From Vulcanimicrobiota bacterium (GTDB lineage Bacteria > Vulcanimicrobiota > Xenobia > Xenobiales > JADMJV01): a stretch of DNA of 64,000 nt. The notes below the pieces were generated by a model that worked only from the letters and a program-made list of their open reading frames with translations, searched no databases and was not told where the DNA came from. The stretch lies in assembly GCA_019637395.1 (NCBI GenBank), contig JAHBVR010000019.1, forward strand, positions 1 through 64,000, in the 5' to 3' direction. Below are positions 12,996-28,746 of the stretch, piece after piece. Positions within the stretch are counted from its first letter, which is position 1; every line of letters starts with the position of its first letter. The position numbers and the translations under genes are program-made.

Positions 12996-13640
12996 GTGGG
13001 GCGGGGCGGCCGACCCATCTTAGAGCGATTTGCGTCGGCTCTGGGAGGCCTATCCGGAGTAGAAGCTCTTGTGCTGGGAGGCTCGCGAGCGCGCGGAACG
13101 CACACCTCCGACTACGACCTGGGGCTGTATTATCGCGGAGAGCTGGATGTGCAAGGCCTGCGCGCCGCGCTGGCCAGCGGGGGCGCCCGGGGAGAGGTCA
13201 ACCAGCCCTGCGACTGGGGCCCCTGGATCAATGGTGGAGGCTGGCTGACCTGTGAGGGTCGGGCTGTCGACATCATCTACCGCGACCAGGACAAAGTCCA
13301 GCGGATCGTCCATGACTGTCTGCAGGGGCGCATCGAGCTGGTCATGCAGCCGGGCCACCCCTTCGGATTCCACACCCCGATCTACGCCGGAGAGCTGGCC
13401 TGTGGCCAGGTGCTGTGGGGAAACATCGAGCGGCCGGATATGCCGACGAGCTGTCTGTGCCAGGTGCTTTTCGCCCGCAACCGGCGCTGGGGACTGAAAC
13501 GAAAAGGGGGCTCTGGCCGAAGCGGCATCCCTGAACGGAGCCCCGGCCGCCTTTGCTGGAACGGGCCAAGAGCGGGTGTGTGCAGGTGATAAGAGAGCTG
13601 CTCAAGGAAGCCGGAATCGCCTCTGACGGATCGGTTTGAG
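12996..13640 (+). pseudogene. Minimal nucleotidyltransferase-domain protein, C-terminus frameshifted
   Basis: From GTG 12996 the sequence has LVLGGSRARGTHTSDYDLGL, the G-S-x-A-R-G and D-x-D core of the MNT/KNTase-type fold, and a further acidic strand AVDIIYRD. The first 150 residues look intact. After PDMPTSCLCQVLFARNRRWG the frame drifts: 13501 onward in another frame gives NEKGALAEAASL, and then VQVIRELLKEAGIASDGSV to a stop near 13640 in a third. A helical segment expected between MPT and QVLF also seems deleted. The open frame itself ends at 13589. Product probably non-functional or truncated. Confidence 0.6.
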
Positions 13641-13924: not shown

Positions 13925-15241
13925 ATGAAGATCGCTTTACTCTCCCCGCGTGGCCCGCTCTATCGCCATAAAACCGGCATTTTCAAGAAGTCTTTGCGCT
14001 ATATGCCTTTGACGCTGCCGACGCTGGCCGCCCTCATTCCGCCCGAACTGACGAATGGACTGCAACTGCTCGACGAAGGCATTGAAGATATTCCCCTGGA
14101 CCTCGACGCCGACCTCATCGGCATCTCGGCCATCACCGGCAGTTCCGCGCGCGCCTACGAGCTGGCCGATCACTATCGCCATCAGGGTAAGTGCGTGGTA
14201 CTGGGCGGTGTGCATCCCACCTTGCTGCCCGATGAAGCCGCCCGCCACGCCGACGCTGTGGTGGTCGGCTATGCCGAGGATAGCTGGCCGCAATTGCTGC
14301 ACGATTTTCAGCAAGGCAGGCTGCAGAGTCGCTACCGTCAGCAGCCCGGACTGCAACTGGGCGGCCGTCCCCTGCCCCGCCGTGACCTGCTGCCCGACGG
14401 CAATTTCACTGTCGGCCATACTCTCGAAGCCACCCGGGGCTGCATTCACAAGTGCAACTTTTGCGTGGTGCCCAGCGCCTGGGGACGGCCGCTCCAACAC
14501 CCTGTTGGTGAGGTCATCCAGGATATCCAGAATATGCGGGCACGCCGCCTGATTTTCATGGACCTGAACCTGATCGCCGACAAAAACTATGCCAAAGAAC
14601 TTTTCCGCGCCCTCATTCCGCTCAAAGTCACCTGGGGCGGACTGGTCACCACCCAGATCGCCTGGGACGACGAACTGCTGGATCTGGCCGCCCGAAGCGG
14701 CTGCAAAGGCCTGCTCATCGGCTTTGAAAGCCTCACTCCCGAAGCTCTGAACGAGTGCAAAAAGGGCTTCAACTTACTCAAGGAATACCGGGAGGTGATC
14801 GCCCGCGTGCACGAGCGTAAAATCGCCATCATGGGCACTTTCGTCTTCGGTTTCGACCACGACGGCATCGAGGGCTTCGCCAACACCGTCGACTTTGTCA
14901 TGGAAAACAAGATCGAACTGCCCCGCTACGCGGTTCTCACCCCGTTTCCGGGCACACCCCTGCACCAACGTCTCGACCAGGAAGGCCGGTTGTTGCACAA
15001 AGACTGGTCGCTCTATGACGGCCAGCACGTGGTTTTCCAACCCTCGCTCATGACTCCGGGCGAGTTACAGCGCGGCATCGAATGGACCTGGAAGAAAACT
15101 TACAGTTACCCAGGTATCGCCCGCCGCTTATGGCGCGGCAATCTTTTCTGGACGGCCCTTACCGCCAACTTGGGCTACCGCTTTTATGCCCACCGCCTGC
15201 ACCAGTTCTACAACTGCCGCGAGCCTTTGCTGGCGGCCTGA
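13925..15241 (+). CDS. B12-binding-type radical SAM enzyme (first)
   Basis: The 438-residue protein has an N-terminal cobalamin-binding-type Rossmann domain (about 1-150, with LIGISAITGSSARAYELA and VVLGGVHPTLLPDE). Then comes a radical SAM core with the iron-sulphur motif C173-x3-C177-x2-C180 in RGCIHKCNFC. Later family motifs are GFESLTPE and LTPFPGTPLHQRL, followed by a C-terminal region of the DUF4070 kind. Such enzymes do radical methylations or C-C bond rearrangements on lipids and natural products; the substrate here is unknown. The canonical DxHxxG cobalamin His is not evident, so cobalamin binding is uncertain. The stop overlaps the start of the second enzyme (TGATG). Confidence 0.85.
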   Translation: MKIALLSPRGPLYRHKTGIFKKSLRYMPLTLPTLAALIPPELTNGLQLLDEGIEDIPLDLDADLIGISAITGSSARAYELADHYRHQGKCVVLGGVHPTLLPDEAARHADAVVVGYAEDSWPQLLHDFQQGRLQSRYRQQPGLQLGGRPLPRRDLLPDGNFTVGHTLEATRGCIHKCNFCVVPSAWGRPLQHPVGEVIQDIQNMRARRLIFMDLNLIADKNYAKELFRALIPLKVTWGGLVTTQIAWDDELLDLAARSGCKGLLIGFESLTPEALNECKKGFNLLKEYREVIARVHERKIAIMGTFVFGFDHDGIEGFANTVDFVMENKIELPRYAVLTPFPGTPLHQRLDQEGRLLHKDWSLYDGQHVVFQPSLMTPGELQRGIEWTWKKTYSYPGIARRLWRGNLFWTALTANLGYRFYAHRLHQFYNCREPLLAA

Positions 15242-16617
15242 TGCGCCTCACTTTCATCCATCCGGCCGTGGGCCACCAGGGGAAACGCCCCTACATTCGC
15301 GCCTGGCAGATGGAACCGCTACCTCTGGCCGTATTGGCAGCCCTCACTCCCAAAGAGGTGGAAATCCGCTTTTATGACGACCGGCTCGAAGATATCCCCT
15401 GGGACGAACCGACCGATCTTGTGGCCATCAGCGTGGAAACCTATACCGCCCGGCGCGCTTACCAGATCGCTTCCCATTTTCGACGCCGTGGCGTGCCCGT
15501 GGTCATGGGCGGTTTTCACGCCACCCTGATCCCCGAGGAAGTGAGCCAGTTCGCCGAAGCGGTGGTGGTCGGCGAAGCCGAAGAAGTCTGGCCCCTGCTG
15601 ATCGATGACTTTCGCCATGGAAAGCTGCAGCCGCTCTACAAATCCAGTGAACGCCCCAAGCTGGCCAGAATCCGCCCGCGCCGCGAGATTTTCGCAGGCA
15701 AGCGCTACCTCAACTTAGGATTGGTCGAAGCCGGGCGTGGTTGCCACTTCCACTGTGAATTCTGTGCCATTCAAGCCTATTTCAAAAACACTCAGGTACG
15801 CCGGCCCACCGACGACATTCTGGCCGATATCCGCGAACACAAACGTCCTTTATACTTTTTTGTAGACGACAACATCACCTCCAACCTGAAGCAAGCCAAA
15901 GACTTCTTCCGCGCCCTGATCCCCCTGAAGATCCGCTGGGTCAGTCAGGCCTCCATCAACATCGCCCACGACGAAGAATTCTTGCAGTTGATTCAGGCCA
16001 GCGGCTGCCAGATGCTGCTCATCGGCTTCGAAACCTTGAACCCGAACAGCCTGAAGGCCATGAACAAAGAGTTCAACAGCATGCGCGGCGGCTACGAACA
16101 GGCCCTGGCCAATCTGAGAAAATATAAAATACGACTCTACCCGACCTTTATTTTTGGCTACGACGAAGACACCGAAGAGACCCTGAAAGAAACGCTGGCC
16201 TTCTGCCGGCGCCAGAAGTTCTACCTGAGCGCCTTCAATCACCTGACTCCTTTCCCCGGTACCCCGCTCTACCGGCGACTGGAACAGGAAAACCGCCTGG
16301 TCTTTGAGCGCTGGTGGCTGGATCCGCGCTACCGCTACGGCATGGTGCCTTTTCGCAGTCGCGGCCTGCCCCCCGAAGCGATCGAACGGCTCTGCCTCAT
16401 GGCCCGCCAAAACTTCTACGGCTTCCCCTCGATTGTACAGCGCAGTCTGGATTTCCAGGTGAACAGCAGCAGTCTTTTTGGCATGGCCACCTTCTTCACA
16501 GCCAACCTGATGTTGCGCCGCGAGGTACTACAGAGACAAAAACTGCCACTGGGTGACGCCGACGATCACACCCCGTTGCTGCCTGTGGCCGGAGTCCTGG
16601 CGGGGTCCGCCTTGTGA
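15241..16617 (+). CDS. B12-binding-type radical SAM enzyme (second)
   Basis: The 458-residue protein starts at ATG 15241 overlapping the preceding stop; MRLTFIHPAVG matches the start style of its neighbour. It has the same architecture: B12-binding-like N-terminus (VAISVETYTARRAYQIA, VVMGGFHATLIPEE), iron-sulphur motif C168-x3-C172-x2-C175 in GRGCHFHCEFC, then LLIGFETLNP and LTPFPGTPLYRRL. ETYTARRAY is shared with the minus-strand enzyme at 17536-18834, so these two are closer paralogues. Its stop overlaps the GTG of the CULT protein, giving a three-gene coupled unit. Confidence 0.85.
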   Translation: MRLTFIHPAVGHQGKRPYIRAWQMEPLPLAVLAALTPKEVEIRFYDDRLEDIPWDEPTDLVAISVETYTARRAYQIASHFRRRGVPVVMGGFHATLIPEEVSQFAEAVVVGEAEEVWPLLIDDFRHGKLQPLYKSSERPKLARIRPRREIFAGKRYLNLGLVEAGRGCHFHCEFCAIQAYFKNTQVRRPTDDILADIREHKRPLYFFVDDNITSNLKQAKDFFRALIPLKIRWVSQASINIAHDEEFLQLIQASGCQMLLIGFETLNPNSLKAMNKEFNSMRGGYEQALANLRKYKIRLYPTFIFGYDEDTEETLKETLAFCRRQKFYLSAFNHLTPFPGTPLYRRLEQENRLVFERWWLDPRYRYGMVPFRSRGLPPEAIERLCLMARQNFYGFPSIVQRSLDFQVNSSSLFGMATFFTANLMLRREVLQRQKLPLGDADDHTPLLPVAGVLAGSAL

Positions 16618-16970
16618 ACAAGACCGAGACCAACCAGCAAGCCCAGGCCAAACCTCAGGCCCAACCGGTAGTTCTGTGTAAAGAATGCCATTCGGTGGTG
16701 ACCGAACCGGAAGCCGCCATCCAGGTGGAAGGCGGCCACGAGCATACCTTCCGCAACCCGGCCGGCTATTCATTTCACGTCCTCTGCTACGCCAGCGCCC
16801 CCGGAACGATCGAAGTGGGCGCCCCTACCGAGGCCGCCAGTTGGTTTCCCGGCTATGCCTGGTCGCTGGCCCTGTGCGCCAACTGCCACCAACACCTGGG
16901 CTGGTGGTATGAAGGCAAAAGCATCTTCGTCGGCCTTATCGCTACCCGTCTGGTGCGTTCCCCCAGCTGA
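16614..16970 (+). CDS. Stand-alone CULT-domain protein (bacterial cereblon-like)
   Basis: The 118-residue protein matches the CULT domain, the thalidomide-binding fold of cereblon that also occurs as small bacterial and secreted eukaryotic proteins. Two CxxC zinc knuckles are present (C22/C25 and C88/C91). The aromatic cage is conserved: W77 and W83 in SWFPGYAWSLALC, and W97/W98 in HQHLGWW, the three-tryptophan pocket that binds cyclic imides. GYSFHVLCYA is the matching central strand. There is no signal peptide. GTG 16614 overlaps the radical SAM stop, so it is co-translated with two B12-type radical SAM enzymes, which suggests it binds or senses a product or damage-derived cyclic imide of that pathway. 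The function is inference; the family call is strong. Confidence 0.85.
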   Translation: MNKTETNQQAQAKPQAQPVVLCKECHSVVTEPEAAIQVEGGHEHTFRNPAGYSFHVLCYASAPGTIEVGAPTEAASWFPGYAWSLALCANCHQHLGWWYEGKSIFVGLIATRLVRSPS

Positions 16971-17029
16971 AATATCCCCGGTCCCGACTGGACCGAATGG
17001 GATTTTCCCGGACAGCTTCGTTCCTCGCT

Positions 17030-17049
17030 AAAGAAGAGTTGCCTTCTTT
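17030..17049. terminator. Possible bidirectional hairpin between convergent genes
   Basis: AAAGAAG (17030-17036) pairs with CTTCTTT (17043-17049) around a six-base loop. It lies between the CULT gene and the oppositely oriented YHS gene, touching the latter's stop codon. The stem is weak (7 bp, AT-rich) and has no separate U tract. Confidence 0.3.
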
Positions 17050-17456
17050 CAACCTGGCCGGACAGATTCGGAAGTAAGTTCTCCGGCTTCGACCACCTCT
17101 TCGGCGCTGATGTAGTGATACCGCTGGCTGGCGCGGTTGAGCAGCCAGGGAAAGACGCGGCCCAGCGTGCGATAGACGGGTTTGCTATAACAGTAAAGTT
17201 TGTCGCCGACGACGTTGCAGAAGTCGGGGTTGCCGGGGTGGCGCTTGCCGCCCAAGGCGTAGGCCACCGGGCACATTCCCTCGAGTTGGGGGAGAAAGCG
17301 TTCCGGGTTGATTTCAAAAATCTCCAGATTGCGTTGGCTGGAGAAGAAGTAGGTCTTGGCGCCGTAGCGCTTTTTGAACTTGGGGCTGCCCATCTGCTTT
17401 TTGAGATGACCAAGAAAGGCAACGGGATCAAGCCCGTTCAAGCCAATGTGGTTCAT
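17049..17456 (-). CDS. YHS-domain protein
   Basis: The 135-residue protein reads MNHIGLNGLDPVAFL, then KTYFFSSQRNLEIFEINPER and FLPQLEGMCPVAYALGGKR, the plan of YHS-domain proteins, in which the domain is a small metal-associated or heme-associated module. The C-terminal VVGDKLYCYSKPVYRTLG also fits the family. I chose ATG 17456 because AGGTGA lies 6 bases upstream; a TTG 15 codons earlier (17501) is possible. It lies downstream of and on the same strand as the third radical SAM enzyme, 79 bases from it, so it is probably in the same transcription unit. Its role in the locus is unknown. Confidence 0.75.
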   Translation of the reverse strand: MNHIGLNGLDPVAFLGHLKKQMGSPKFKKRYGAKTYFFSSQRNLEIFEINPERFLPQLEGMCPVAYALGGKRHPGNPDFCNVVGDKLYCYSKPVYRTLGRVFPWLLNRASQRYHYISAEEVVEAGELTSESVRPG

Positions 17457-17535
17457 TTTAATCACCTGCCCTTGCGTAAAGTGGTATATCTTTCCTAACA
17501 AGGATCAGGCAGTCTGGTCTGTGAAGCCGGTTACA

Positions 17536-18834
17536 TCAACCTAAAGGCCTCCCCAGTTTGCGCTCGAGAGTGCGCCGCGAAGTCCAATTGGCTCCCAGAC
17601 TGATCAGCCGGTGACTCACGGAACGACAACCAGCGGCCGGCCAGAGCACCCGGCCAGCGATATTGGAGCAACCGTAAAACTGAGCGCGTGCCCAGCGACA
17701 GCCTTCGGTCAACTGTTGCGCCGTCAGCAGACGGGGCCGGTAGACGGCATCTCCATAGCCGTACCGGCCGTCCAGCCACCAGCGCTCATAGAGCAGCCGG
17801 TCCTCTTTTTCCAGACGAGCATAGAGCGCGCTGGCCGGAGTGGGCGTGAGAGCGCTGAAGTTCACCAGGAAGAGCTGATTTTCCAGGGCGAAATCGACGG
17901 TGCGGGCGAACACGTCGTGATCGTCGTGGTCGTAGCCGAAGATGAAGGAGCCGTAGATCATGATGCCCTGGGCGTGGAAGCGCGCGATGGCCTCACGGTA
18001 AGGATGGCGCGTGTTCCACTTCTTGCGCATTTGCGCCAGATTGGCTCCATCCAGCGACTCAAAACCGATCAGGGCGGCCACGCAACCGCTCTCCGCCATG
18101 GCCCGCAGCAGCCTTTCATCGGCGGCCACGTCCAGGCTGATCTGACATCCCCAGCGCAGGCCGCAACCGCGCAGGCCGGCCAACAGGCCGTGCAGGGCTT
18201 GGCCGTTGACGAAGAGGTTGTCGTCCACCACAAATAAGTAGCGCGAACGCAACGAGCAAGCTTCGGTCACCACTTCATCGATGGGCCGGTGCTTCAAAGA
18301 ACGCCCGTAAAAGGCGTGAATGGAGCAGAAATCACAGGCGAAGCGGCAACCCCGGCTGAACTGTAGCGGCGTCACCCTGCCATACGATTTTTTATAAAAA
18401 AGCGACCGATCATAGCGTAGGCCGAGCATCTCACCCCCGGCCGGCTGGCGATAGAGGCGCTCCAGGCGACCGGTGGCCGCATCACCAAGAACCCGAGGCC
18501 ACAGGGCTTCGGCGTCGCCGCACACCACCGCGTCGCAGTGAAGCAACGCTTCTTCGGGCAAAAAGGTCGGATGGTAGCCGCCGGCCACCACTTTGAGACC
18601 CTGAGCGCGAAAGCGATCGGCCAGGGCGTAGGCGCGGCGGGCCGTGTAGGTCTCCACCGTCAGAGCCACCAGATCGGTATGCAGAACGGCCGGCACCGCT
18701 TCCACTTTCTCGTCCCACAGCTCGCACTCCACGTCAGGCGGAGTGACTCCTTTGAGCACGGCGAAAGCCAGCGGCTCCATGGCGTCGGGAGAACGCCAAT
18801 CTCCCAGGTTGGGACGCACGAAGCTGATTTTCAC
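17536..18834 (-). CDS. B12-binding-type radical SAM enzyme (third)
   Basis: Taking GTG 18834 as the start gives VKISFVRPNLG, which aligns with the starts of the other two enzymes. A longer frame to 18903 would overlap the divergent desaturase gene. The 432-residue protein has the B12-binding-like domain (ALTVETYTARRAYALA, VVAGGYHPTFLPEE) and the cluster motif C163-x3-C167-x2-C170 in RGCRFACDFC. Further family motifs are ALIGFESLDG, GSFIFGYDHDDHD and LTPTPASALYARL. It is divergent from the desaturase operon with 57 bases between starts, so the two likely share a control region. The second plus-strand enzyme is its nearest visible paralogue. Confidence 0.83.
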   Translation of the reverse strand: MKISFVRPNLGDWRSPDAMEPLAFAVLKGVTPPDVECELWDEKVEAVPAVLHTDLVALTVETYTARRAYALADRFRAQGLKVVAGGYHPTFLPEEALLHCDAVVCGDAEALWPRVLGDAATGRLERLYRQPAGGEMLGLRYDRSLFYKKSYGRVTPLQFSRGCRFACDFCSIHAFYGRSLKHRPIDEVVTEACSLRSRYLFVVDDNLFVNGQALHGLLAGLRGCGLRWGCQISLDVAADERLLRAMAESGCVAALIGFESLDGANLAQMRKKWNTRHPYREAIARFHAQGIMIYGSFIFGYDHDDHDVFARTVDFALENQLFLVNFSALTPTPASALYARLEKEDRLLYERWWLDGRYGYGDAVYRPRLLTAQQLTEGCRWARAQFYGCSNIAGRVLWPAAGCRSVSHRLISLGANWTSRRTLERKLGRPLG

Positions 18835-18891
18835 CCGCCCGGCTTCGGGAAAGGGCCAGGGGATCCCCTGAAATTTCCAGAAGCCGCCCGA

Positions 18892-19815
18892 GTGAGCCAG
18901 CAACCCATTCCCAGCCGTCTCAACCTCGCCATCGGGGCCGTCTCGATGAGCGGCTGTCTGGCGCTGCTCTGGCTGGCCTCACATACTCAGAGCGGCTGGG
19001 TGCTGCTGGGCAGCGCCGTGCTTTTCTCCTATCTGAACAACACCAACTTCTCGCTGTTTCACGAGGCCGAGCACAAGATTCTCCACTCCAATGAAACGGT
19101 CAACGAATGGTTCGGACGTATCCTGGGCGCCTTTTTCCCGACCAGCCTGGGCTTTCATCGGGCCGGCCATCTCAACCACCACGCCCACAACCGCAGTGAA
19201 TTTGAAACCTTCGACTACATCCGTCCCGGCGAGAACCTGCCGCTGAAGTATGTGCAATGGTACTGCGTACTCACCGGAGTCTATTGGACCCTGCCGCCGC
19301 TGGCCAGCCTGGCCTACATGATCTGGCCGGGCTACGTGCGCCTCGGCTCGTTGCGCAACACGGCCGAGGCCAGGCAGACGGCCACCATGACCTACGCCAA
19401 AGCTTACGATCGCGCCCCCGAAACGGTCATCCGCCTGGAAGTAGGCCTGAGCATTTTGTTGCAGATGGCTTTTTTTCAGCTCCTCGACCTGAACTGGGTA
19501 GGCTGGGGATGTTGCTATGCCGCCTTCGCTCTCAACTGGGCCTCTCTCCAGTATGCCGACCACGCCTTTTCCGCCTGCGACCCCCTGACCGGCGCCTGGA
19601 ATCTACGCGTCAACCCGATTATTCGGGCTTTCTTCCTGAACTACCACTACCATAAAGCCCACCATGAACATCCCAAAGTTCCCTGGATTTATCTCGGGAA
19701 CTACCTCGACCCTGAGGAATTCCGCCCCTGGTTCTGGGACATCTACTGGTTGATGTGGCGCGGACCCCAACCCTTACCCGCCGATGGCCGCAGCCCCCTT
19801 GTCCCGCGCCGTTAA
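18892..19815 (+). CDS. Membrane fatty-acid desaturase/hydroxylase-type protein
   Basis: The 307-residue protein has the three histidine boxes of the di-iron membrane desaturase superfamily. HEAEHKILH is at about 57-65, HRAGHLNHHAHN at about 89-99, and YHYHKAHHEHP near the C-terminus. Hydrophobic segments flank them (LAIGAVSMSGCLALLWLA, LGSAVLFSYL, and others). It would introduce a double bond or hydroxyl into a lipid or carotenoid-like chain. GTG 18892 is the first start past the divergent gene; no clear ribosome site is seen, so translation may be leaderless. It is the first gene of a six-gene overlapping operon. Confidence 0.85.
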   Translation: MSQQPIPSRLNLAIGAVSMSGCLALLWLASHTQSGWVLLGSAVLFSYLNNTNFSLFHEAEHKILHSNETVNEWFGRILGAFFPTSLGFHRAGHLNHHAHNRSEFETFDYIRPGENLPLKYVQWYCVLTGVYWTLPPLASLAYMIWPGYVRLGSLRNTAEARQTATMTYAKAYDRAPETVIRLEVGLSILLQMAFFQLLDLNWVGWGCCYAAFALNWASLQYADHAFSACDPLTGAWNLRVNPIIRAFFLNYHYHKAHHEHPKVPWIYLGNYLDPEEFRPWFWDIYWLMWRGPQPLPADGRSPLVPRR

Positions 19816-20407
19816 GCCGGAGCCCGCAGCCCTGGGATTGGTGGCTCTGGCCCTGGCCGTCTACTGGGCCCTTTACGCCTTGAGTGCCCGATTGGGAGAC
19901 TTCGCCGCCACCCGCTACCACTTCTACTTCGAATGGGAACGGAATATCCCACTGGTACCGGCGGCCGCGCTGGTCTACCTGTCCATCACCTTCATGTTGA
20001 TTCCGCTGCTGCAGGCGCTGCCCACCGCCCGCCAACTCTGGCCGGTGGCCGTCACCCTGATATTTCAAGGATTGGTGGCTTCGCTGTGCTTCTGGCTGGT
20101 ACCGCTGGAAGACGGGTTTCCCAGCCACCCTCCCGTCACCGGCTGGGACGGCCGGATCTGGGAATTATCCAATCAATTGGCCTTGCGCCACAATTATTTT
20201 CCCAGTTTGCATGTCACTTTGGCCACCTCGGCGGCTCTGGTCCTATCGCGCCGGCGCGGTCGAGTGGACTGGCCCATGGTCTTGTGGGCGGCGGCCATCG
20301 CGCTGTCCACCCTGTTTGTCCACCAGCACCATGTAGCCGACGTGCTGGGCGGATTGGTGCTGGCCCTGGCCGGCGTGCATCTGGTCTACGACCGGTTGGC
20401 CAAATGA
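19784..20407 (+). CDS. PAP2-family membrane phosphatase
   Basis: The 207-residue protein overlaps the desaturase gene by 32 bases. It has about five hydrophobic segments. The C-terminal part carries NYFPSLHVTLATSAALVLSR and then FVHQHHVADVLGG, corresponding to the PSxH and H-x-x-x-D motifs of PAP2 phosphatases. Such enzymes remove phosphate from lipid phosphates such as phosphatidate or polyprenyl diphosphate, with the active site facing outward. In this operon it probably acts on a lipid intermediate. The stop overlaps the next ATG. Confidence 0.8.
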   Translation: MAAAPLSRAVKPEPAALGLVALALAVYWALYALSARLGDFAATRYHFYFEWERNIPLVPAAALVYLSITFMLIPLLQALPTARQLWPVAVTLIFQGLVASLCFWLVPLEDGFPSHPPVTGWDGRIWELSNQLALRHNYFPSLHVTLATSAALVLSRRRGRVDWPMVLWAAAIALSTLFVHQHHVADVLGGLVLALAGVHLVYDRLAK

Positions 20408-21561
20408 TCAGCAGTCTCTGGAACGGATTCCAACTGCTCTTCCGCCCCTACCCCTACTTTCGCGATGCGCGCACCACCTGGCGAGCTCCGCTTCCCGGGC
20501 TGGGCTCGGTGCTTATCAGCGCTGACCCCGGCCTGGTGGCGGAAGCAGCCAGACATCCCGACCTGGTGGGCGGGCGCGCCCATCGCGCCATGCGCGCCAG
20601 CCTGGGTGACGGCCACCTGATCGTCATGTGCGGGCCCGAGCACCGCCTGCGCAGCCGCCAGGTGCGCCGGGCTTTGCAGGCCTTCACCAGCGACTCCGAG
20701 ATGGCCGAAATCACCCGCCAGGAATTCGCCCGCACTCCGCTGCGGCGTCCGTTCTCTGTGCAGCAGGTAGCCCACCGAGCCAGTTTGCGCATTATTTTAA
20801 GAGGGCTGGTAGGGCGCGATGAGACCGCGTTGATCCAGCTCAGCCAGGCTTTTCAAGCTTCCTTTTCCAGTCCACTGCTGCTTTTTGTGGAAAAGCTGCG
20901 CCGGGACTGGGGGCCCTGGTCGCCCTGGGGCCGCCTGTTGCGCCGCCGGGCTCGTTTGCAAGAGGCGCTGCTCCAGGCGGCTCGTTGCGCCCCACCCGGC
21001 AGTATCGCCGCTCGCCTACCCTCGGAAACCTGGGAGTACGAGCTACTCCCCCAGTTGATGTTCGGCCACGAAACCACCGCCGCCACCTTCGCCTGGTCTT
21101 TTGCGCTGCTCTATCCCGAGGCCCGCCGCCGCATTGCCAACGGAGAGGAAGCTTTCACGCTGGCCTACGTGCAGGAATGCATGCGACTGTGCCCACCAGT
21201 GGCCCAACTCACCCGAATGGCCACCCGGGAGCTATGCCTGGGCTCGCATTCCCTACGCCCGGGCGAAGTGGTGATGCCGGCCCTCCCCGGGCTCCACCAC
21301 CACGGCTGGTCCCACTCGGACCAATTAGAACCGGGACGCTTTCTTCAAGAAACCCCGGATCCGCACCGCTATTGTCCCTTCGGCCTGGGGGAACGCATCT
21401 GCCCGGGCAAGCCGATGGCCCTGCGCCAACTGGTCATGATGCTGCAAACCGTGCTCCAGCATTTCGATATTCACCCGCTGGCGGGCTATCAGCCCCGGCC
21501 CGTCCGCCAACTGTTCCTGGTTGCCCCGGCTCAAGGAACTCCGGCCATCCGCCGAGCGTGA
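20404..21561 (+). CDS. Cytochrome P450
   Basis: The start is ATG 20404, overlapping the PAP2 stop, giving 385 residues, within the usual bacterial range. The I-helix oxygen-activation motif is FGHETTAATFAW (about 220-231, GHETT in place of AGxET). The ExxR pair is E258/R261 in VQECMRL. The heme-binding loop is PFGLGERICPG with the thiolate ligand C333. It is a monooxygenase needing redox partners; none is encoded in the window. Its place between PAP2 phosphatase and GNAT-like genes points to oxidation of a lipid-like or natural-product intermediate. The stop overlaps the following GTG. Confidence 0.9.
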   Translation: MISSLWNGFQLLFRPYPYFRDARTTWRAPLPGLGSVLISADPGLVAEAARHPDLVGGRAHRAMRASLGDGHLIVMCGPEHRLRSRQVRRALQAFTSDSEMAEITRQEFARTPLRRPFSVQQVAHRASLRIILRGLVGRDETALIQLSQAFQASFSSPLLLFVEKLRRDWGPWSPWGRLLRRRARLQEALLQAARCAPPGSIAARLPSETWEYELLPQLMFGHETTAATFAWSFALLYPEARRRIANGEEAFTLAYVQECMRLCPPVAQLTRMATRELCLGSHSLRPGEVVMPALPGLHHHGWSHSDQLEPGRFLQETPDPHRYCPFGLGERICPGKPMALRQLVMMLQTVLQHFDIHPLAGYQPRPVRQLFLVAPAQGTPAIRRA

Positions 21562-22532
21562 ACGACTTTCGCCTGGCCCGGCCCGAAGACAGGGCCGACC
21601 TGGAAGCGCTTTCGGCCCTGCCCGTGCCCGGCCGCTGGATCGATCTGAGCTATCGCCGTTGCTTCCAGGATTGCCGCGAGCAAGTCTTGTTGGGGCGCAC
21701 GCAAACGGGGGAAATGGCCGCTCTGGCGCTACGTTCCCTGCCCTTACTGTGGCGCCGGGGTACTCCCCAAAGGCTGGGTTATCTGGGGGGCCTGCGGGTC
21801 GACCCGCGCTTTCAGGGACGCAATCTACTGGCCGAAGGGTTTGCCCTGCTGCGCCGCCTGCACGAGGCCGACCCGGTCGAGGAGTATCTGGCCACCATCG
21901 TGGAGGGCAACCAGTTGGCCCGCCGCCTGCTGGTGGAACGAGCCCGCCCCAGCTGGCCGCGTTTTTTTCCGTCCGGAGTACTGTGTACTCTGGCTCTGGA
22001 AACTCGCGCCTTTCCTTTCCAGGTCGTCTCGGCACCGGATGGGCAGTGTCAAAGAGAATATTTTCCTTGTGAAACTCCCGAGGAAGCGGGTGAACGGCGC
22101 TGGTGGGTGCAACACGAAGGAGTAATCGGCTGCCTGCGCGATCTTTCCCGCACTCGCCAAACCCGTGTGGCTGGTTACCACGGCGCTTTGCGCTGGCTCC
22201 GTCCGCTCTTCAACCTGTGGCAGAAACTCTGGAAACGCCCGTTGCTGCCCGCCTCTGGAAGTCTCTTAAAAGGCGGCTACGCCGGCTTCGTGTGCAGCGA
22301 TGGATACCGGCCCCGGGCCTTCGAGCAGTGGCTGCCAGGAATGCTTGGAATGGCCCGCGCCCAAGGAATGGATTGGCTTTATCTGGGATTGTGCGAAAGC
22401 GATCCCTACCTGCCCATCGCCCGGCGCTTTCGCCATCGCCTTTACCGCAGCCAGGTCTTTCGCGTGCGCTATCAAGGCCAGCCCGCCCCTCTGAACGAAG
22501 GAGCGCCCTACCTGGAACTGGCATGGTTATAA
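21558..22532 (+). CDS. GNAT-like acetyltransferase-fold protein
   Basis: GTG 21558 overlaps the P450 stop and opens MNDFRLARPEDRADLEAL, a GNAT-type first strand and helix. Residues about 70-130 (LGYLGGLRVDPRFQGRNLLA followed by GFALLRRLHE) resemble the acetyl-CoA-binding region with a Q/R-x-x-G-x-G/N pattern, followed by ATIVEGNQLARRLL. The 324-residue length suggests a double GNAT fold, the second half being divergent. The acyl acceptor is unknown. Fully embedded in the desaturase operon, it may acylate the pathway product or an intermediate. Confidence 0.65.
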   Translation: MNDFRLARPEDRADLEALSALPVPGRWIDLSYRRCFQDCREQVLLGRTQTGEMAALALRSLPLLWRRGTPQRLGYLGGLRVDPRFQGRNLLAEGFALLRRLHEADPVEEYLATIVEGNQLARRLLVERARPSWPRFFPSGVLCTLALETRAFPFQVVSAPDGQCQREYFPCETPEEAGERRWWVQHEGVIGCLRDLSRTRQTRVAGYHGALRWLRPLFNLWQKLWKRPLLPASGSLLKGGYAGFVCSDGYRPRAFEQWLPGMLGMARAQGMDWLYLGLCESDPYLPIARRFRHRLYRSQVFRVRYQGQPAPLNEGAPYLELAWL

Positions 22533-23182
22533 AACAAGAAGTGGTGGCGGTAAGCGAACTGCCGGCAGCTCAACTCCGCCTTTTGCAAGACCTCTACGAA
22601 GCGCACTACGGCGGTCTTCACCATTTCGCGCGCGATCTTTCGGAGAAGGACTGGGTGCTCTTGCTGCGCTCCGGTCAGCAGGTGGTCGGCTTCTCCAGTC
22701 TGCAGCGACGAGAGCAGAACGCTTTCGTGGTCTACTTTTCCGGCGATACGCTGGTCTTGCCGGACCACCGCCACGCTTATGATCTGCCGCGCCTGTGGGG
22801 CCGTTTCGTGTTCCAGCAAGTAGCCCGGGAATCCCTGCCCTGTCTCTGGTTCCTGATTTGCGGCGGATTTCGTACCTACCGATTTTTACCGGTATTTTTT
22901 CAAAAATTTTATCCGCGTTATGAGGAGAAAACCCCGGGGGAAACGCAAGCTTTGCTGGACCGATTGGCCTCCCAGCGCTACGGCGACCTCTATCACGAGG
23001 GAATCGTCCGGCTCGGCTCCCCCTGCCTGGAAGAACTGCCGCCGCGCGAGCTGGACGCCCACGCCCGCTTCTTCCTGGAACGCAATCCGGGCTGGCGCCT
23101 GGGCCACGAACTGGCCTGCCTGACCTGGCTGGACCGGGCCAACCTGACCCCGGCCGGTCAACGCATGGTGCGCGCTTGCTAG
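22523..23182 (+). CDS. Unrecognised protein, possibly GNAT-like
   Basis: The 219-residue protein starts at ATG 22523, overlapping the previous gene by 10 bases. LLLRSGQQVVGFSSLQRREQ and the following strands are reminiscent of the N-terminal sheet of GNAT enzymes, but no clear cofactor loop is visible. It contains an aromatic-rich segment (FRTYRFLPVFFQKFYPRY) and no signal peptide. The overlap on both sides indicates strong co-expression with the GNAT-like and GH3 genes. I cannot assign a function. Confidence 0.6.
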   Translation: MVIKQEVVAVSELPAAQLRLLQDLYEAHYGGLHHFARDLSEKDWVLLLRSGQQVVGFSSLQRREQNAFVVYFSGDTLVLPDHRHAYDLPRLWGRFVFQQVARESLPCLWFLICGGFRTYRFLPVFFQKFYPRYEEKTPGETQALLDRLASQRYGDLYHEGIVRLGSPCLEELPPRELDAHARFFLERNPGWRLGHELACLTWLDRANLTPAGQRMVRAC

Positions 23183-24627
23183 GCGCCCTCTGGTGGCTGA
23201 GCTGCCTGCCCGAGGCCTGGCGCTTCCAGCGGGCGGCTGAGCGGGTCCAGATGACGCAAAAAGCCTATCTGGGCGGTCTCTGGCAGCGCAACCAAAACTG
23301 CGATTATTTTCGTTCCCATGGCCTCAAGCGTGCGGAAGACTTTCGCGAAAAACTGCCACTGGTCACCTATGGAGACCTGGAAGAATGGATCGAGCGCTGC
23401 GCCGGCGGCCGGCAGAACGTTTTATGCAGCGAGCCCATCCAGCTCTTTGAGCCGACCAGCGGCACCCAGGCGGTCAAGTTGATTCCCTACACGGCTTCCC
23501 TGAAGGCCGAGTTTCAACGCGGACTGGGGGCCTGGATTGGGGACCTCTATGGAGGCAAGCCGGCCCTGATGAGCGGGCGCGCCTACTGGTCGATCACTCC
23601 CCCGAGCCGATGGGGATGCCCCCAGCGCACCGCCGGCGGCATCCCCATCGGCTTCGAGGATGACGCCGCCTACCTGTCAGGCTGGAGCCAGCACCTGGTG
23701 CGCGGCCTGCTGGCCGTCCCCCGAGCCTCCGATCTGGATGAGACCATCACCCAATTGCTGCACTGCCCCGACCTGAAGCTGGTCTCGGTGTGGAGCCCCA
23801 CTTTCTGGCTGCTGCTCCTGGAAAGGTTGCGGTCCCACTGGGACCATTGGGCTTCCCTGCCGGGCCTGCGAGAGCGAATGTCCCGAGGCCCTCGCGAACT
23901 CTGGCCGGAATTGCGCTTGCTGAGCTGTTGGGCTGACGGTCCCTCGGTGCGTTTTCTGCCGGCTTTGCGCGCCGATTTTCCCAATCTCTTCATTCAGCCC
24001 AAGGGCTTGTTGGCCACCGAAGCTTTTATCAGCTTCCCCCTGCTCGGGCGGCGCGGAGCCGCACTCTCTGTGCGCAGCCATTTTTTCGAATTTCTGGGCG
24101 AAGACGGGCGAGAGGTTCTGGCTCATGAACTGGTGGCGGGCCGCAGCTATGAAGTGGTGGTCAGCACCGGCGGAGGGCTCTATCGTTACCGCCTGGGAGA
24201 CAGGGTCCGCGTCACGGGCTTTTATAAGGAGTGCCCGCTGGTGCGCTTTCTGGGCCGCAGCGGCCTGGTCAGCGACCATTTCGGCGAGAAACTCACTCCC
24301 GAGGCTATCGAACTCTGGCTACCTACTCGTCGCGGCCCCTGTTTCGTGGCCTTCGAAGACGGCGGCTACGTGCTCTACGCTGAAGGCGACCTGAGCCAGG
24401 CCCTTCGGGAGGGCGAAGAATCCCTGCTCTTTTACTATCACTACCGGCTGTGCCGCCAGTTAGGCCAGTTGAAGCCCCTGCGAGGTTTCCAAATCGCAGA
24501 CAAAGCCTGGGAAGCGTTCTATACGCGCCTGGAATCGCTCGGCCGCCGCCGTGGCGAGGTCAAACCCCTGGCCCTGCGCCTGGAAGAGGACTGGAGTCAC
24601 CACCTCCCCGGGCGCTGGGTCCACTAG
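23176..24627 (+). CDS. GH3-family acyl-acid amido synthetase
   Basis: The 483-residue protein starts with TTG 23176 inside the previous gene. LFEPTSGTQAVKLIPYTASL is the GH3 phosphate-binding/ATP motif, with VTYGDLEEWIERCAGG before it. YEVVVSTGGGLYRYRLGDRVRV is the signature C-terminal strand-loop of the family. GH3 enzymes adenylate a carboxylic acid and join it to an amine, as plant enzymes do with auxin and jasmonate; many bacteria have homologues of unknown substrate. As the last operon gene it could conjugate the oxidised lipid or acid product with an amino acid or amine. No terminator follows. Confidence 0.85.
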   Translation: MLGALWWLSCLPEAWRFQRAAERVQMTQKAYLGGLWQRNQNCDYFRSHGLKRAEDFREKLPLVTYGDLEEWIERCAGGRQNVLCSEPIQLFEPTSGTQAVKLIPYTASLKAEFQRGLGAWIGDLYGGKPALMSGRAYWSITPPSRWGCPQRTAGGIPIGFEDDAAYLSGWSQHLVRGLLAVPRASDLDETITQLLHCPDLKLVSVWSPTFWLLLLERLRSHWDHWASLPGLRERMSRGPRELWPELRLLSCWADGPSVRFLPALRADFPNLFIQPKGLLATEAFISFPLLGRRGAALSVRSHFFEFLGEDGREVLAHELVAGRSYEVVVSTGGGLYRYRLGDRVRVTGFYKECPLVRFLGRSGLVSDHFGEKLTPEAIELWLPTRRGPCFVAFEDGGYVLYAEGDLSQALREGEESLLFYYHYRLCRQLGQLKPLRGFQIADKAWEAFYTRLESLGRRRGEVKPLALRLEEDWSHHLPGRWVH

Positions 24628-24783: not shown

Positions 24784-26115
24784 TTAACCAAACAGCCAGT
24801 TGCCGAGATTGCCGCCGAGCAAGGCACCGCCGATGCCGCCGACCACACCGCCGATGATACCGCCGGCAATGTTACCGACCACCGGCACCGCCGTCCCCAG
24901 CGCGGCGCCGAGCAGGGCTCCACCCTTGGCTCCCGCGGCCGCTCCGGCCCAACCGCCGGCCACGTTGGTGGCAGCCTTCACGGTGTTCTTTCCGACGGTG
25001 CCGCCATCTTTCTGGAAGGCCTGGCCGAGTTCAATAGCATCGGTTGCCACTCCGATGGGTTTGAAGACTTTCCCCACCTTGCCGAGCTTGTCGGCAAAAC
25101 GCTGTGCGCGCACCTCGGTGTCGTTCAGCCTGACCGACCCCCCAAATTGGTTGCGAACATTGTCGCGGTTGGGTATTTCAAACTGCTGGCCCTGGCCCCC
25201 CACCTTTCCATGTCCGGGCTGGTCACCGATCACCGATTGATTCAGTTGCACGCCGGGCTGGTGGGTCACCGACTGGCGGTGGGTGGGAGGTTTGTCGAGT
25301 GCCAGTTTTTCTTGAATTTCCGAGCGCAGCAACCCGTCCGTCGAGCCTTTGGGCACGGTGAACCCGCCGCCCTTCGGGTTGTGAGCTCCATGAACCCGAT
25401 CGGTCTGCAGGCCCTCCGGACCTACGGTCACTTTATTGCCTGGCCCCCTGGGGTCGCTGGGCGGCACCCAGGCGCCATCCTTCACCCGGGGTTTGCCGTC
25501 GGGGCCGAGTTCTTTCGGCACTTGATAATCCTTGCCCCCGTTGCGGGCCACGAATTCTCCGTTCAATTTCCGTCCCGAACTCTTGTCGACCTGATGTCCC
25601 CCGGCTCTCAAGTCGCCGGCGGTCTGCCGAACCTGTGCGGCACCGTCGGGACCCCGGCCCGGTCGGTTGACCTCATTACGCCGGGCGGTGGCGGCGGCAT
25701 CTCGAAATTCCTTGGTGTTGTTGGCGGCATCCAAACCCTTGACGACTTCACCCGCTTCTTTGGTCGGCAGATTGCCGCCCTGGTTGGCAGGCTGCTGAAC
25801 TCCGTTCGGGACAGCGGCCTCGGCGGCCCGGTGCTGACTGGCCCGATCGACCTTGCTCGGGTTGACGGTCCCGGGCTTGGGGAAATTCGAGCCCAGGTTG
25901 CTCACCAGAGTTCTGGTGCCGGCTGTGGCCGGCGCATTCCTGGTCAGAGGAGAGAGGCGGTCTCGTGTCGAGATCGCCGAGCTCTTCTGAGTGGAGGATG
26001 GTTTGGTCGAACTGGCCTTATTACTCGAGGCGGTGCTCTTGCTGCTGCTCTTACTTGAGGACCTCCGAGGTGCTGAAGAAGAGGATGAAGATGACTTCGT
26101 AGATACCGTGCTCAC
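24784..26115 (-). CDS. Ser-rich protein with glycine-rich hydrophobic C-terminus (unrecognised)
   Basis: GTG 26115 is chosen because GGGAGG lies 5 bases upstream (26121-26126); it gives 443 residues starting MSTVSTKSSSSSSSAPRRSS. A longer frame reaches 26268. The N-terminal ~50 residues are Ser/Lys low-complexity. The middle is hydrophilic and rich in Asn, Gly, Arg and Pro (for example KLNGEFVARNGGKDYQVPK). The last ~70 residues are alternating Gly/Ala/Val/Ile (GAAAGAKGGALLGAALG, GGIIGGVVGGIGGALLGG), a glycine-zipper or bacteriocin-like membrane helix hairpin. There is no signal peptide. The layout resembles secreted toxin-like or effector proteins, but no toxin domain is recognisable. Confidence 0.65.
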   Translation of the reverse strand: MSTVSTKSSSSSSSAPRRSSSKSSSKSTASSNKASSTKPSSTQKSSAISTRDRLSPLTRNAPATAGTRTLVSNLGSNFPKPGTVNPSKVDRASQHRAAEAAVPNGVQQPANQGGNLPTKEAGEVVKGLDAANNTKEFRDAAATARRNEVNRPGRGPDGAAQVRQTAGDLRAGGHQVDKSSGRKLNGEFVARNGGKDYQVPKELGPDGKPRVKDGAWVPPSDPRGPGNKVTVGPEGLQTDRVHGAHNPKGGGFTVPKGSTDGLLRSEIQEKLALDKPPTHRQSVTHQPGVQLNQSVIGDQPGHGKVGGQGQQFEIPNRDNVRNQFGGSVRLNDTEVRAQRFADKLGKVGKVFKPIGVATDAIELGQAFQKDGGTVGKNTVKAATNVAGGWAGAAAGAKGGALLGAALGTAVPVVGNIAGGIIGGVVGGIGGALLGGNLGNWLFG

Positions 26116-26242
26116 GTTGGCCTCCCAGTCGTTTGTGACCTTCACTTTAGACGGAGAGTTGCCCTTAAAGAATCCTGAACCAGTAGCGTTTTTGCAAATT
26201 CTGTTTCCGGAATGAAAACAAATTCCGGGAGCAGGAGGGGCC

Positions 26243-27037
26243 TTGAAGCCTGCGGAAATGCCGGCCATGAAGGTCCGAATTCCGGGTTGTTTCCTCCTGG
26301 GAACGCTGTTCTGCGCGGCCCAAACCGAGTCGCCTCAACAAGCGCAATTTCGCGCCTGCCGGGCCAACCTGAAGAGTCTGGCTCAGGCCCTCGAGTTTTA
26401 CGCCGCCGATAACCCGGGCCAGCCCGGCCCGCCGCTGGCGAAACTGGCGCCCGGCTACTTGAAGAAAATGCCCACCTGCCCGGCCGCCAACTCGGACACC
26501 TACTCCCAGGTCGAATGGTCGGGCGAGAAGTTCACCCTGTGCTGCCGCGGCAATCATCACGCGGCCCTCAACGTCGCTCCCGATCATCCGGCCTACGCCT
26601 TTCCCGCCGGTGAAGTCTCGGGGTTGCCGCCCACGCCCGCGGAGAAGATTCTGGCCAGGCATCAGCAAGTGCTCGACCAGAAGCGGGCCATCGCCGATCG
26701 CATCGCCGCCGAACAAAACGAAAGCAGCCAACTGCTGGAAGCCTACCGCAAGACCAAGTCCAAGAATCTTCCCCCCGAGGCTCTGATCGAATTGGTCAAC
26801 CAGGGAGTGCTCACCACTCCCCCAGAGAAATTCCCGGCCCTCACCACTCCGGCCATGACCCCCGAAGAGCGGCAGATTCTGGAGAGCGAAAAATCGCCCG
26901 AAGGCATTTCCTACCTGAAAGTGGTGGAGGAGATCGACCGACGTTTTCCCGATTCCGAATTCGTGGCCTACTGCCAGAGCAACCAGTTTATGCTGCGCAG
27001 AAACCGCTGGCTGCGCGGAAAAATCGGCAAGCTGTAG
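26243..27037 (+). CDS. Secreted protein with pseudopilin-like N-terminal region
   Basis: TTG 26243 is supported by AGGAGG (26233-26238); ATG 26267 (MKVRIPGCFLLGTLFCAAQ) is an alternative that begins directly with a signal peptide. After it, ACRANLKSLAQALEFYAADN and LAPGYLKKMPTCPAANSDTY resemble the soluble part of type II/type IV pseudopilin-like proteins, with paired Cys and the L-x-P-x-YL-x-x-x-P-x-CP pattern, but without the long N-terminal pilin helix. The C-terminal half is charged and helical with no known motif. It is divergent from the Ser-rich protein gene; the 127-base space should contain both promoters. Confidence 0.6.
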   Translation: MKPAEMPAMKVRIPGCFLLGTLFCAAQTESPQQAQFRACRANLKSLAQALEFYAADNPGQPGPPLAKLAPGYLKKMPTCPAANSDTYSQVEWSGEKFTLCCRGNHHAALNVAPDHPAYAFPAGEVSGLPPTPAEKILARHQQVLDQKRAIADRIAAEQNESSQLLEAYRKTKSKNLPPEALIELVNQGVLTTPPEKFPALTTPAMTPEERQILESEKSPEGISYLKVVEEIDRRFPDSEFVAYCQSNQFMLRRNRWLRGKIGKL

Positions 27038-27439: not shown

Positions 27440-28258
27440 TTAACGGCGATTGTTCGGGTTCCACCAATCGGTCACTTGGAAGATCAACCAGGTGGTGGGT
27501 ACCCAGATGGCTTGAGCCAGGCGAAACCGCCAGTGCTTACGAGGCGGATCGGGCGGTTGAGCCGAAATTTGCGCAGCCAGGGCGGAACGCAGACGCGTCC
27601 CAAACTCATCCGCCGTTTCCTCCGGTTGGGCCCGCAGGGCGGGCCCAAAACGGACCCGAATGCTGCCGCCCTCAACCCAGGCGCCGCGGGCGGTCGACAG
27701 ACATTCCGGGCCGGAAAGCCCGAGCGGCACCACCGGGACTCCCGATTCCACCGCCAGCACCGCCGCGCCCGAGCGAAAGGGCTGAAGTTCCCGGCGATGG
27801 GTTTGGTAAGCCTCGGGAAAGATGGCCACTGCCCGCCCTTGACGCAGGCGCAGGGCGGCCTCACGCACCCCAGAAGAACCGATTCCAACCGTAACCCCAC
27901 CACTCCAGCCGATGAGCGGACCCAAAATAGGAATGCGCAGCACCTCCTGACGGATCAGAAAGTCCAACACCCGCGGCGTCACCGCCGCCACCAGAAAAGG
28001 ATCCATCAGGGTCGGATGGTTGGCCACCAGAATCACCGGCCCCTCAGCGGGCAGATGCTCCAGTCCTTGAATCTGCGGCTGCCAGTAGGGCAGCAACAGC
28101 AGCGCGCCCCAGGCCCGCAGACCGCGGTAAATGAACCGGTTGCTAGCGACGCCGGAAGAACCAGCCGAGCGCTCCGCCCACGGCCAGGCCGACGGCGGCC
28201 GTGGCCGCCGCCGTGTAGCCGGCCGCTTTCTTGGAAAGGTTGAGAATGGGGTTGTCAA
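27440..28258 (-). CDS. PlsC-like 1-acylglycerol-3-phosphate acyltransferase
   Basis: The protein has the acyltransferase motifs in order: VANHPTLMDPF (the H-x4-D active site), SSGVREAALRLRQGRAVAIF with PEAYQTHR (block III with the E-G/A-type loop), and VPVVPLGLSG (block IV). It would transfer an acyl chain to lysophosphatidate or a related lipid. The start is uncertain. TTG 28258 is the only ordinary start in the frame but overlaps the upstream gene by 116 bases and adds an Arg-rich N-terminus unlike the family. The normal family start would fall near FIYRGLRAWGALLLL (about 28130), where only an ATT codon is available. Confidence 0.75.
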   Translation of the reverse strand: MTTPFSTFPRKRPATRRRPRPPSAWPWAERSAGSSGVASNRFIYRGLRAWGALLLLPYWQPQIQGLEHLPAEGPVILVANHPTLMDPFLVAAVTPRVLDFLIRQEVLRIPILGPLIGWSGGVTVGIGSSGVREAALRLRQGRAVAIFPEAYQTHRRELQPFRSGAAVLAVESGVPVVPLGLSGPECLSTARGAWVEGGSIRVRFGPALRAQPEETADEFGTRLRSALAAQISAQPPDPPRKHWRFRLAQAIWVPTTWLIFQVTDWWNPNNRR

Positions 28259-28691
28259 AAACGTTGGTGGAGGTGTGTACTGACACCAATTTCCAGTTGC
28301 CGTCCTGCTTGACCATCGAGTTGCTCCAGCGCACCCGGCAGGTAAAAGTCAGGCCGTCGGCCAGTTTGTAGCTGGTGTCGGCCCAGCCGGTGGCGACTCC
28401 GAAGCCACCGTCAAAGAGAGTGGTCAACTGATCGGCTTCGATGGCGTCGATGGAGGTGGACTTTACGCGGGGCCGAGGTCCGGCCAGCATGGTTTCGTGG
28501 TAGTTGCGCACACCGGCGTGACCATGACAGACCCGGCCGTCCATGGCGGTGAAGGCAACATTTTCGTCGCAGACCGCCAACATGCCGTGGATGTCGCCGC
28601 GATTATAGGCGGCCACGAAGGCATCTCGCATGGCTCGTAGAGCCTGATGATCCGCCTCTTGGGCGGTTTGCGTGGTATTTGCGTCGCTCAT
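28143..28691 (-). CDS. NTF2/SnoaL-like protein with C-terminal membrane anchor
   Basis: ATG 28691 (MSDANTTQTAQEADHQALRA) is preferred; a frame from 28748 would add 19 residues and run into the divergent aminotransferase start. Residues 20-140 form an NTF2-like cone: RDAFVAAYNRGDIHGMLAV then VAFTAMDGRVCHGHAGVRNY, and VRWSNSMVKQDGNWKLVSVH. The C-terminus (YTAAATAAVGLAVGGALGWFF) is a single membrane helix followed by RRR, so the domain is displayed in the cytoplasm or tail-anchored. The stop overlaps the PlsC-like frame, suggesting co-expression. Ligand unknown. Confidence 0.7.
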   Translation of the reverse strand: MSDANTTQTAQEADHQALRAMRDAFVAAYNRGDIHGMLAVCDENVAFTAMDGRVCHGHAGVRNYHETMLAGPRPRVKSTSIDAIEADQLTTLFDGGFGVATGWADTSYKLADGLTFTCRVRWSNSMVKQDGNWKLVSVHTSTNVFDNPILNLSKKAAGYTAAATAAVGLAVGGALGWFFRRR

Positions 28692-28746
28692 ACGGTCGCG
28701 CTTCGGGCGCAGGGGACGAAGATCCTCGGTGGGAAAGCGAGCCGGC

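Follow-up and report, generated by a model that had tools for sequence, protein, structure and literature searches.

The window, i.e. the whole stretch of 64,000 nucleotides analyzed, is carried by a genome of 7.66 Mb. The eleven genes that the first-pass annotation had described between positions 13925 and 24627 were all recovered with intact frames, and their families were assigned by Pfam. On the forward strand the genes of two B12-type radical SAM enzymes, rS1 (13925..15241) and rS2 (15241..16617), overlap, and rS2 in turn overlaps the gene of a single-domain CULT (cereblon-type) protein (16614..16970; Pfam Yippee-Mis18, 27.5 bits). The reverse strand encodes a YHS-domain protein (17049..17456; PF04945, 32.8 bits) and a third B12-type radical SAM enzyme, rS3 (17536..18834). 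The start of rS3, which had been placed at 18903, was corrected to approximately 18834, leaving a divergent gap of about 57 bp to the desaturase gene. With this gene a forward-strand operon begins, encoding a FA_desaturase-family membrane enzyme (18892..19815; PF00487, 74.8 bits), a PAP2-family phosphatase/transferase (19784..20407; PF01569, 39.3 bits), a cytochrome P450 (20404..21561; PF00067, 89 bits), a tandem GNAT protein (21558..22532), a divergent single-domain GNAT protein termed UNK (22523..23182) and a GH3 acyl-acid amido synthetase (23176..24627). As had been claimed for this six-gene operon, every junction overlaps (five of five, by 4 to 32 nt).

The cluster had been taken to end at 24627. 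The eleven genes are real; however, the conserved set runs on to 28691 and includes, both on the reverse strand, the genes of a PlsC-type acyltransferase (27440..28150; PF01553, 76 bits) and of a SnoaL/DUF4440-like protein with a C-terminal hydrophobic segment (28143..28691; PF14534/PF13474, 33 bits). As these two genes overlap, we consider the cluster to reach approximately 28.7 kb. Between GH3 and PlsC the reverse strand encodes a protein without a Pfam family that is rich in Ser and Lys and has a Gly/Ala-rich stretch at its C-terminus (24784-26268); in the genus relatives no counterpart was detected close to GH3 at the thresholds used. On the 5' side of rS1, a two-component-regulator-type propeller protein (10079-12013, forward) and a nucleotidyltransferase-domain protein (12996-13589, forward) were not recognized as cluster members. 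Divergent from the SnoaL-like gene lies the gene of a PLP-dependent enzyme (28672-29850, forward), kept at 68-83% in three genus relatives. Its nearest NCBIfam models were PRK07324 aminotransferases and the guanitoxin and capreomycidine enzymes GntC and VioD, all below cut-off. A sphingolipid-type pathway via this enzyme was rejected on the basis of these matches and of its absence from the other clusters, apart from a weak match in L072.

When approximately 85,000 species genomes were scanned using the alignment of UNK, 339 encoding stretches resulted, and 80 loci were kept. Outside the cyanobacteria and the genus of the window, 22 loci carry rS1, rS2, the tandem GNAT gene, UNK and GH3 (core genes 1 to 5) consecutively on one strand and in this order, many of them with 4-nt overlaps. 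They were found in ten phyla, namely Verrucomicrobiota, Acidobacteriota, Chloroflexota, Planctomycetota, Gemmatimonadota, Thermodesulfobacteriota, Pseudomonadota, Deinococcota, Fidelibacterota and Riflebacteria. Since the named strain Chthoniobacter flavus Ellin428 is among the carriers, the ordered core is not only a binning artefact. Further loci showed partial or permuted cores, for example UNK-GH3-rS1-rS2-GNAT in L016. The rS1 of the window shares 41-67% identity with the rS1 proteins of the 22 ordered loci, and its rS2 46-65% across the ten phyla. In the window CULT, the reverse-strand YHS and rS3 genes, the desaturase, PAP2 and P450 genes stand between rS2 and the tandem GNAT gene. The closest publicly available relatives come from metagenomes; they carry the name Candidatus Eremiobacterota and are placed in Vulcanimicrobiota. 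Members of the genus retain the arrangement, with protein identities of about 58-94%; G001 lacks PAP2, and the contig of G004 begins at the desaturase gene.

In a tree of 83 radical SAM proteins the rS1 orthologs formed a clade of 29 rows and rS2 a clade of its own, and both showed the same mixing of phyla: loci of Gemmatimonadota (L050) and Acidobacteriota (L099) fell within Verrucomicrobiota, and the Desulfobacula locus (L072) grouped with that of Marinimicrobia (L080). Distances were correlated for all ten pairs of core proteins (Mantel r 0.66-0.92). Because the branching of rS1 matches that of rS2, with members of different phyla interspersed, and the core distances correlate, the core appears, judged from the sequences, to move between phyla as one unit. 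The genes had rightly been expected to be co-located rather than scattered, but the conserved unit is rS1-rS2-GNAT-UNK-GH3 and not the six-gene operon. The window is a lineage-specific, enlarged version of this widespread five-gene module.

As the 80 loci had been found through UNK, the genes for UNK, GH3 and rS1 were searched independently in evenly drawn genomes. In Verrucomicrobiota, UNK was present in 6 of 145 genomes, and GH3 proteins of the cluster type, with E below 1e-90, occurred in exactly the same six, always adjacent and 14 to 121 bp from UNK by match ends; the remaining Verrucomicrobiota GH3 proteins scored below 70 bits. The p-value of 9e-11 for this co-occurrence is overstated, the genomes being related. 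In five of the six a radical SAM gene of the core set lay on the same contig, and in the other genome rS1 was found on another contig. Eremiobacterota contained UNK in 8 of 149 genomes, the same eight that carried GH3 among the 58 searched. Among 194 cyanobacterial genomes 20 contained UNK, and 19 of these also a strong GH3, in many cases, though not all, no more than about 12 kb away. Across the draws hypergeometric values ranged from 5e-10 to 2e-25, again overstated due to related genomes. Chloroflexota provided no independent test, since only the seed genome had UNK (1 of 201). We were aware of the fact that the window changes transcription direction several times and that the six-gene operon can be read alone, so that two or three unrelated operons might be neighbors by positional accident. 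This is highly improbable, as rS1-rS2 and GNAT-UNK-GH3 are joined as one operon in ten other phyla and the full arrangement is kept in the genus. Conserved order and evenly drawn genomes rule out a chance neighborhood.

The CxxxCxxC motif is intact in rS1, rS2 and rS3, which reached 59, 57.6 and 42.4 bits for Radical_SAM. The B12-binding domain (PF02310) was above the cut-off in rS1 (45 bits) and rS3 (35 bits) and just under it in rS2 (32.0 versus 32.1 bits); with this reservation for rS2, motif and domain define all three as B12-type radical SAM enzymes. In the NCBIfam comparison HpnJ and TIGR04072 gave 61-79 bits and HpnR 38-58 bits, versus cut-offs of 360-650. An identity as hopanoid (HpnJ, HpnR), ladderane or BchE enzymes was consequently rejected, with at most 82 bits versus cut-offs of at least 360. 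The tree resolved rS1, rS2, rS3 and a further protein, rS4, as separate groups. The rS3 of the window clusters with rS3 proteins from clusters of Chloroflexota, Opitutales, Desulfobacula and Gemmatimonadota. The fourth B12 radical SAM group, rS4, was seen together with rS3 beside the core in L027, L049, L072, L086, L088, L091 and L095; in other phyla the two are often paired, rS4 being the usual neighbor of rS3 there. In the window, rS3 has no rS4 neighbor.

The fourth and third core genes had been labeled "unknown" and "GNAT-like", and neither product matched a Pfam or NCBIfam model. The AlphaFold2 model of UNK (pLDDT 84) shows a single GNAT fold with NatD, AAC(2') and GCN5 as nearest folds in Foldseek (E 4e-6), and 27 columns were invariant over 17 sequences, cyanobacteria included. 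The model of the GNAT-like protein (pLDDT 82) shows two GNAT domains in tandem, nearest to Eis and N-myristoyltransferase (E about 1e-7). The "GNAT-like" protein is accordingly a tandem GNAT, and the "unknown" protein is, by its model, a second GNAT-fold protein. As the TM-scores of both models were moderate (0.4-0.6), membership in the GNAT fold class is well supported by the models, and this support does not extend to function.

The fifth core protein was above the cut-off for PF03321 (98.0 versus 23.6 bits) and GH3_M (66.7 versus 23.6) and below it for the C-terminal domain (15.0 versus 23.6). Its nucleotide-binding motifs TSGT (at 94) and YRYRLGD (at 336) are largely conserved over the alignments, and a profile comparison matched it to plant GH3 structures with E 7e-37. 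The GH3-family enzyme OlsH of the OlsH/OlsI pathway of Singulisphaera acidiphila joins fatty acids to ornithine, yielding N-acyl ornithine (PMC12493201). The OlsH model NF052613 was the only NCBIfam model matched by all cluster GH3 proteins (17 of 17, best E 1.4e-20). An OlsH identity of the window GH3 was rejected because its score (32.2 bits) lies far under the equivalog cut-off of 620; OlsH is, by sequence, the nearest characterized relative at this step, and a distant one. Other bacterial GH3 groups with much lower scores and without UNK were seen in genomes of Verrucomicrobiota, Chloroflexota and Cyanobacteria, some present twice in a genome, an indication of several separate GH3 functions in bacteria.

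The CULT, YHS, rS3, desaturase, PAP2 and P450 genes are accessory to the core. The two CxxC motifs of the CULT protein (CKEC and CANC) and its best solved match, bacterial cereblon isoform 4 (PDB 7ps9, E 1e-24, residues 17-117), place it with the CULT/cereblon-type domains. A check for a conserved neighborhood of CULT and operon had been suggested; CULT is kept in this position in G001, G002 and G003 but was seen nowhere beyond the genus, and the YHS gene is likewise kept in these three and restricted to the genus. The P450 (heme motif FGLGERICPG; nearest solved relative CYP175A1, E 3e-23) was also found beside the core in the genus only. Of the GH3, P450 and radical SAM genes, whose co-occurrence had been put forward for a search, GH3 was linked with rS1-rS2 in the 22 loci of ten phyla. 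Other accessories are recurrent: outside the genus, a desaturase, a PAP2 protein, a SnoaL-like protein, a Rieske protein and a 330-aa protein return beside the core in Verrucomicrobiota, Planctomycetota, Pseudomonadota and Acidobacteriota. About ten loci from outside the genus carry a desaturase homologue beside the core; the window protein matched the CrtW model weakly (20 bits versus a cut-off of 350). PAP2, with an intact PSLH motif in the window, has homologues adjoining the core in L026, L030, L096 and others. SnoaL-like homologues were found in nine non-cyanobacterial loci outside the genus and weakly in cyanobacterial ones. The PlsC gene is kept in three genus relatives and adjoins GH3 in G003 and G004; its scores with the OlsA model were 22 and 18 bits, below the cut-off of 300. 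In a genome of the sister genus (G005), a fused ACP/fatty acyl-AMP ligase/PlsC gene lies directly upstream of rS2 (L017, 5957-8722, forward). The 330-aa protein (L068, 3137-4129, reverse; homologues in L030, L042, L055, L081, L083 and L096) has no Pfam family and is repeatedly encoded near the core, alongside genes of the Rieske, SnoaL and desaturase types.

The cyanobacterial loci are built differently. In the loci read from Nostoc, Planktothrix, Microcystis, Calothrix and Okeania, UNK is followed by genes for a Rieske protein, a ferritin-like protein, an AurF-like protein, a second Rieske protein, a fatty acid hydroxylase, a hexapeptide protein and usually GH3. No radical SAM gene of the core set was seen in the cyanobacterial stretches read, and in most of these loci the Rieske, diiron (AurF/ferritin-like) and hydroxylase genes occupy its place. 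The fatty acid hydroxylase is nearest to OlsE. Oxygen-dependent enzymes may thus replace the radical SAM steps in cyanobacteria, where Rieske, diiron and fatty-acid-hydroxylase enzymes would carry out the oxidative reactions with oxygen.

We propose, giving it about an even chance, that the module makes an oxidized acyl amide, probably an aminolipid, and that the window holds its expanded lineage form. rS1 and rS2 would functionalize unactivated acyl-chain carbons by hydroxylation, methylation or ring formation. GH3 would activate the resulting carboxylic acid with ATP and form an amide with an amine that is probably an amino acid. The two GNAT-fold proteins would attach acyl groups to nitrogen or transfer them there. 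The lineage of the window might use the desaturase, P450, third radical SAM enzyme, PAP2 and PlsC to decorate or esterify the product. Both the proposed sequence of chemical steps and a lipid product are plausible inferences. A lipid product is hinted at by OlsH as the best NCBIfam match of all 17 cluster GH3 proteins, by the resemblance of the tandem GNAT to N-myristoyltransferase, by the overlap of PlsC and SnoaL genes, by the ACP/AMP-ligase/PlsC fusion beside rS2 in the sister genus and by OlsE as the nearest match of the cyanobacterial fatty acid hydroxylase. Singly these hints are weak (32 bits versus 620 for OlsH, 22 versus 300 for OlsA, 20 versus 350 for CrtW), and no dedicated fatty-acid or polyketide synthase was found in the core.

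The conjugated acid might instead be an isoprenoid, e.g. a prenol released by PAP2 and oxidized to the acid, with desaturase and P450 acting as in carotenoid or terpenoid oxidation. CYP175A1, the nearest relative of the P450, is a beta-carotene hydroxylase; PAP2 is nearest to undecaprenyl-diphosphatases, the desaturase to CrtW/CrtR and the Rieske proteins to the methylsterol monooxygenase SdmA. Every one of these matches, however, is far below its curated cut-off, many core clusters lack desaturase, PAP2 and P450, and no terpene synthase or prenyltransferase was recognized as recurring beside the core, which makes an isoprenoid rather unlikely. A diffusible non-lipid natural product or signal, comparable to plant hormone conjugation by GH3, is unlikely as well. 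In its favor, the solved GH3 relatives, plant enzymes, act on small acids, B12 radical SAM enzymes are common in natural product pathways, and inter-phylum transfer and patchy spread (4-10% of genomes in three phyla, 1 of 201 in Chloroflexota) fit specialized metabolism. Against it, the PlsC, fatty acid desaturase, fatty acid hydroxylase, Mpo1-like and PAP2 partners use membrane-type substrates in known cases, and a recurring transporter or regulator was not seen beside the core. The proposal of an oxidized acyl amide can be extended, tentatively and with considerable doubt, to an unrecognized class of acyl-amide lipids in at least 12 phyla, made by a mobile five-gene core with radical SAM oxidation without oxygen in most lineages and Rieske/diiron oxidation with oxygen in most cyanobacterial carriers, CULT having been taken on in one lineage as a binding protein for the product or for an intermediate.

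In agreement with the first-pass annotation, no published pathway with this gene set was found in the open-access literature searched, the OlsH paper being the sole relevant match. As the GNAT proteins lack a family model, the radical SAM enzymes score below equivalogs and no such cluster turned up in the literature searched, we rate the pathway as undescribed and assembled from known enzyme families. A strictly ordered operon that recurs in genomes from an isolate and from metagenomes across many phyla must yield something useful, and for two of the five encoded proteins no family is named. The product could turn out to be more novel. The gene set could be linked to unassigned bacterial lipids, it places bacterial GH3 proteins other than OlsH in a genomic context, and it allows two natural versions of one pathway, possibly without and with a need for oxygen, to be compared.

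Such a duality is known from BchE and AcsF, the anaerobic and aerobic cyclase pair, in which equivalent steps are served by a B12 radical SAM enzyme on the one hand and an oxygen-dependent one on the other, the logic proposed here for both versions; this is an analogy only, as tetrapyrrole genes are not involved. HpnJ, HpnR and the ladderane enzyme TIGR04072 share the B12-binding and radical SAM architecture, and some act on lipids, but the window proteins score far under their cut-offs and belong to a system of four separate ortholog groups. The plant enzymes JAR1, GH3.12 and GH3.15 share fold family and ATP-binding motifs with the window GH3; they differ in low sequence similarity and in conjugating hormones as stand-alone enzymes without an operon. 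OlsB is a GNAT-fold N-acyltransferase, and the OlsB/OlsA pathway likewise combines such an enzyme with a PlsC-type O-acyltransferase in one lipid pathway, although neither window GNAT matches an NCBIfam or Pfam model and PlsC reaches 22 bits versus 300 for OlsA. The OlsH operon differs from the window in having OlsG and OlsI (PMC12493201), the window GH3 reaches 32 bits versus 620, and radical SAM enzymes are never mentioned in the OlsH paper (PMC12493201). The OlsH/OlsI system nevertheless resembles the module in GH3-family synthesis of N-acyl amino acids, in a nearby acyltransferase partner and in its bacterial, patchy distribution across phyla (PMC12493201).
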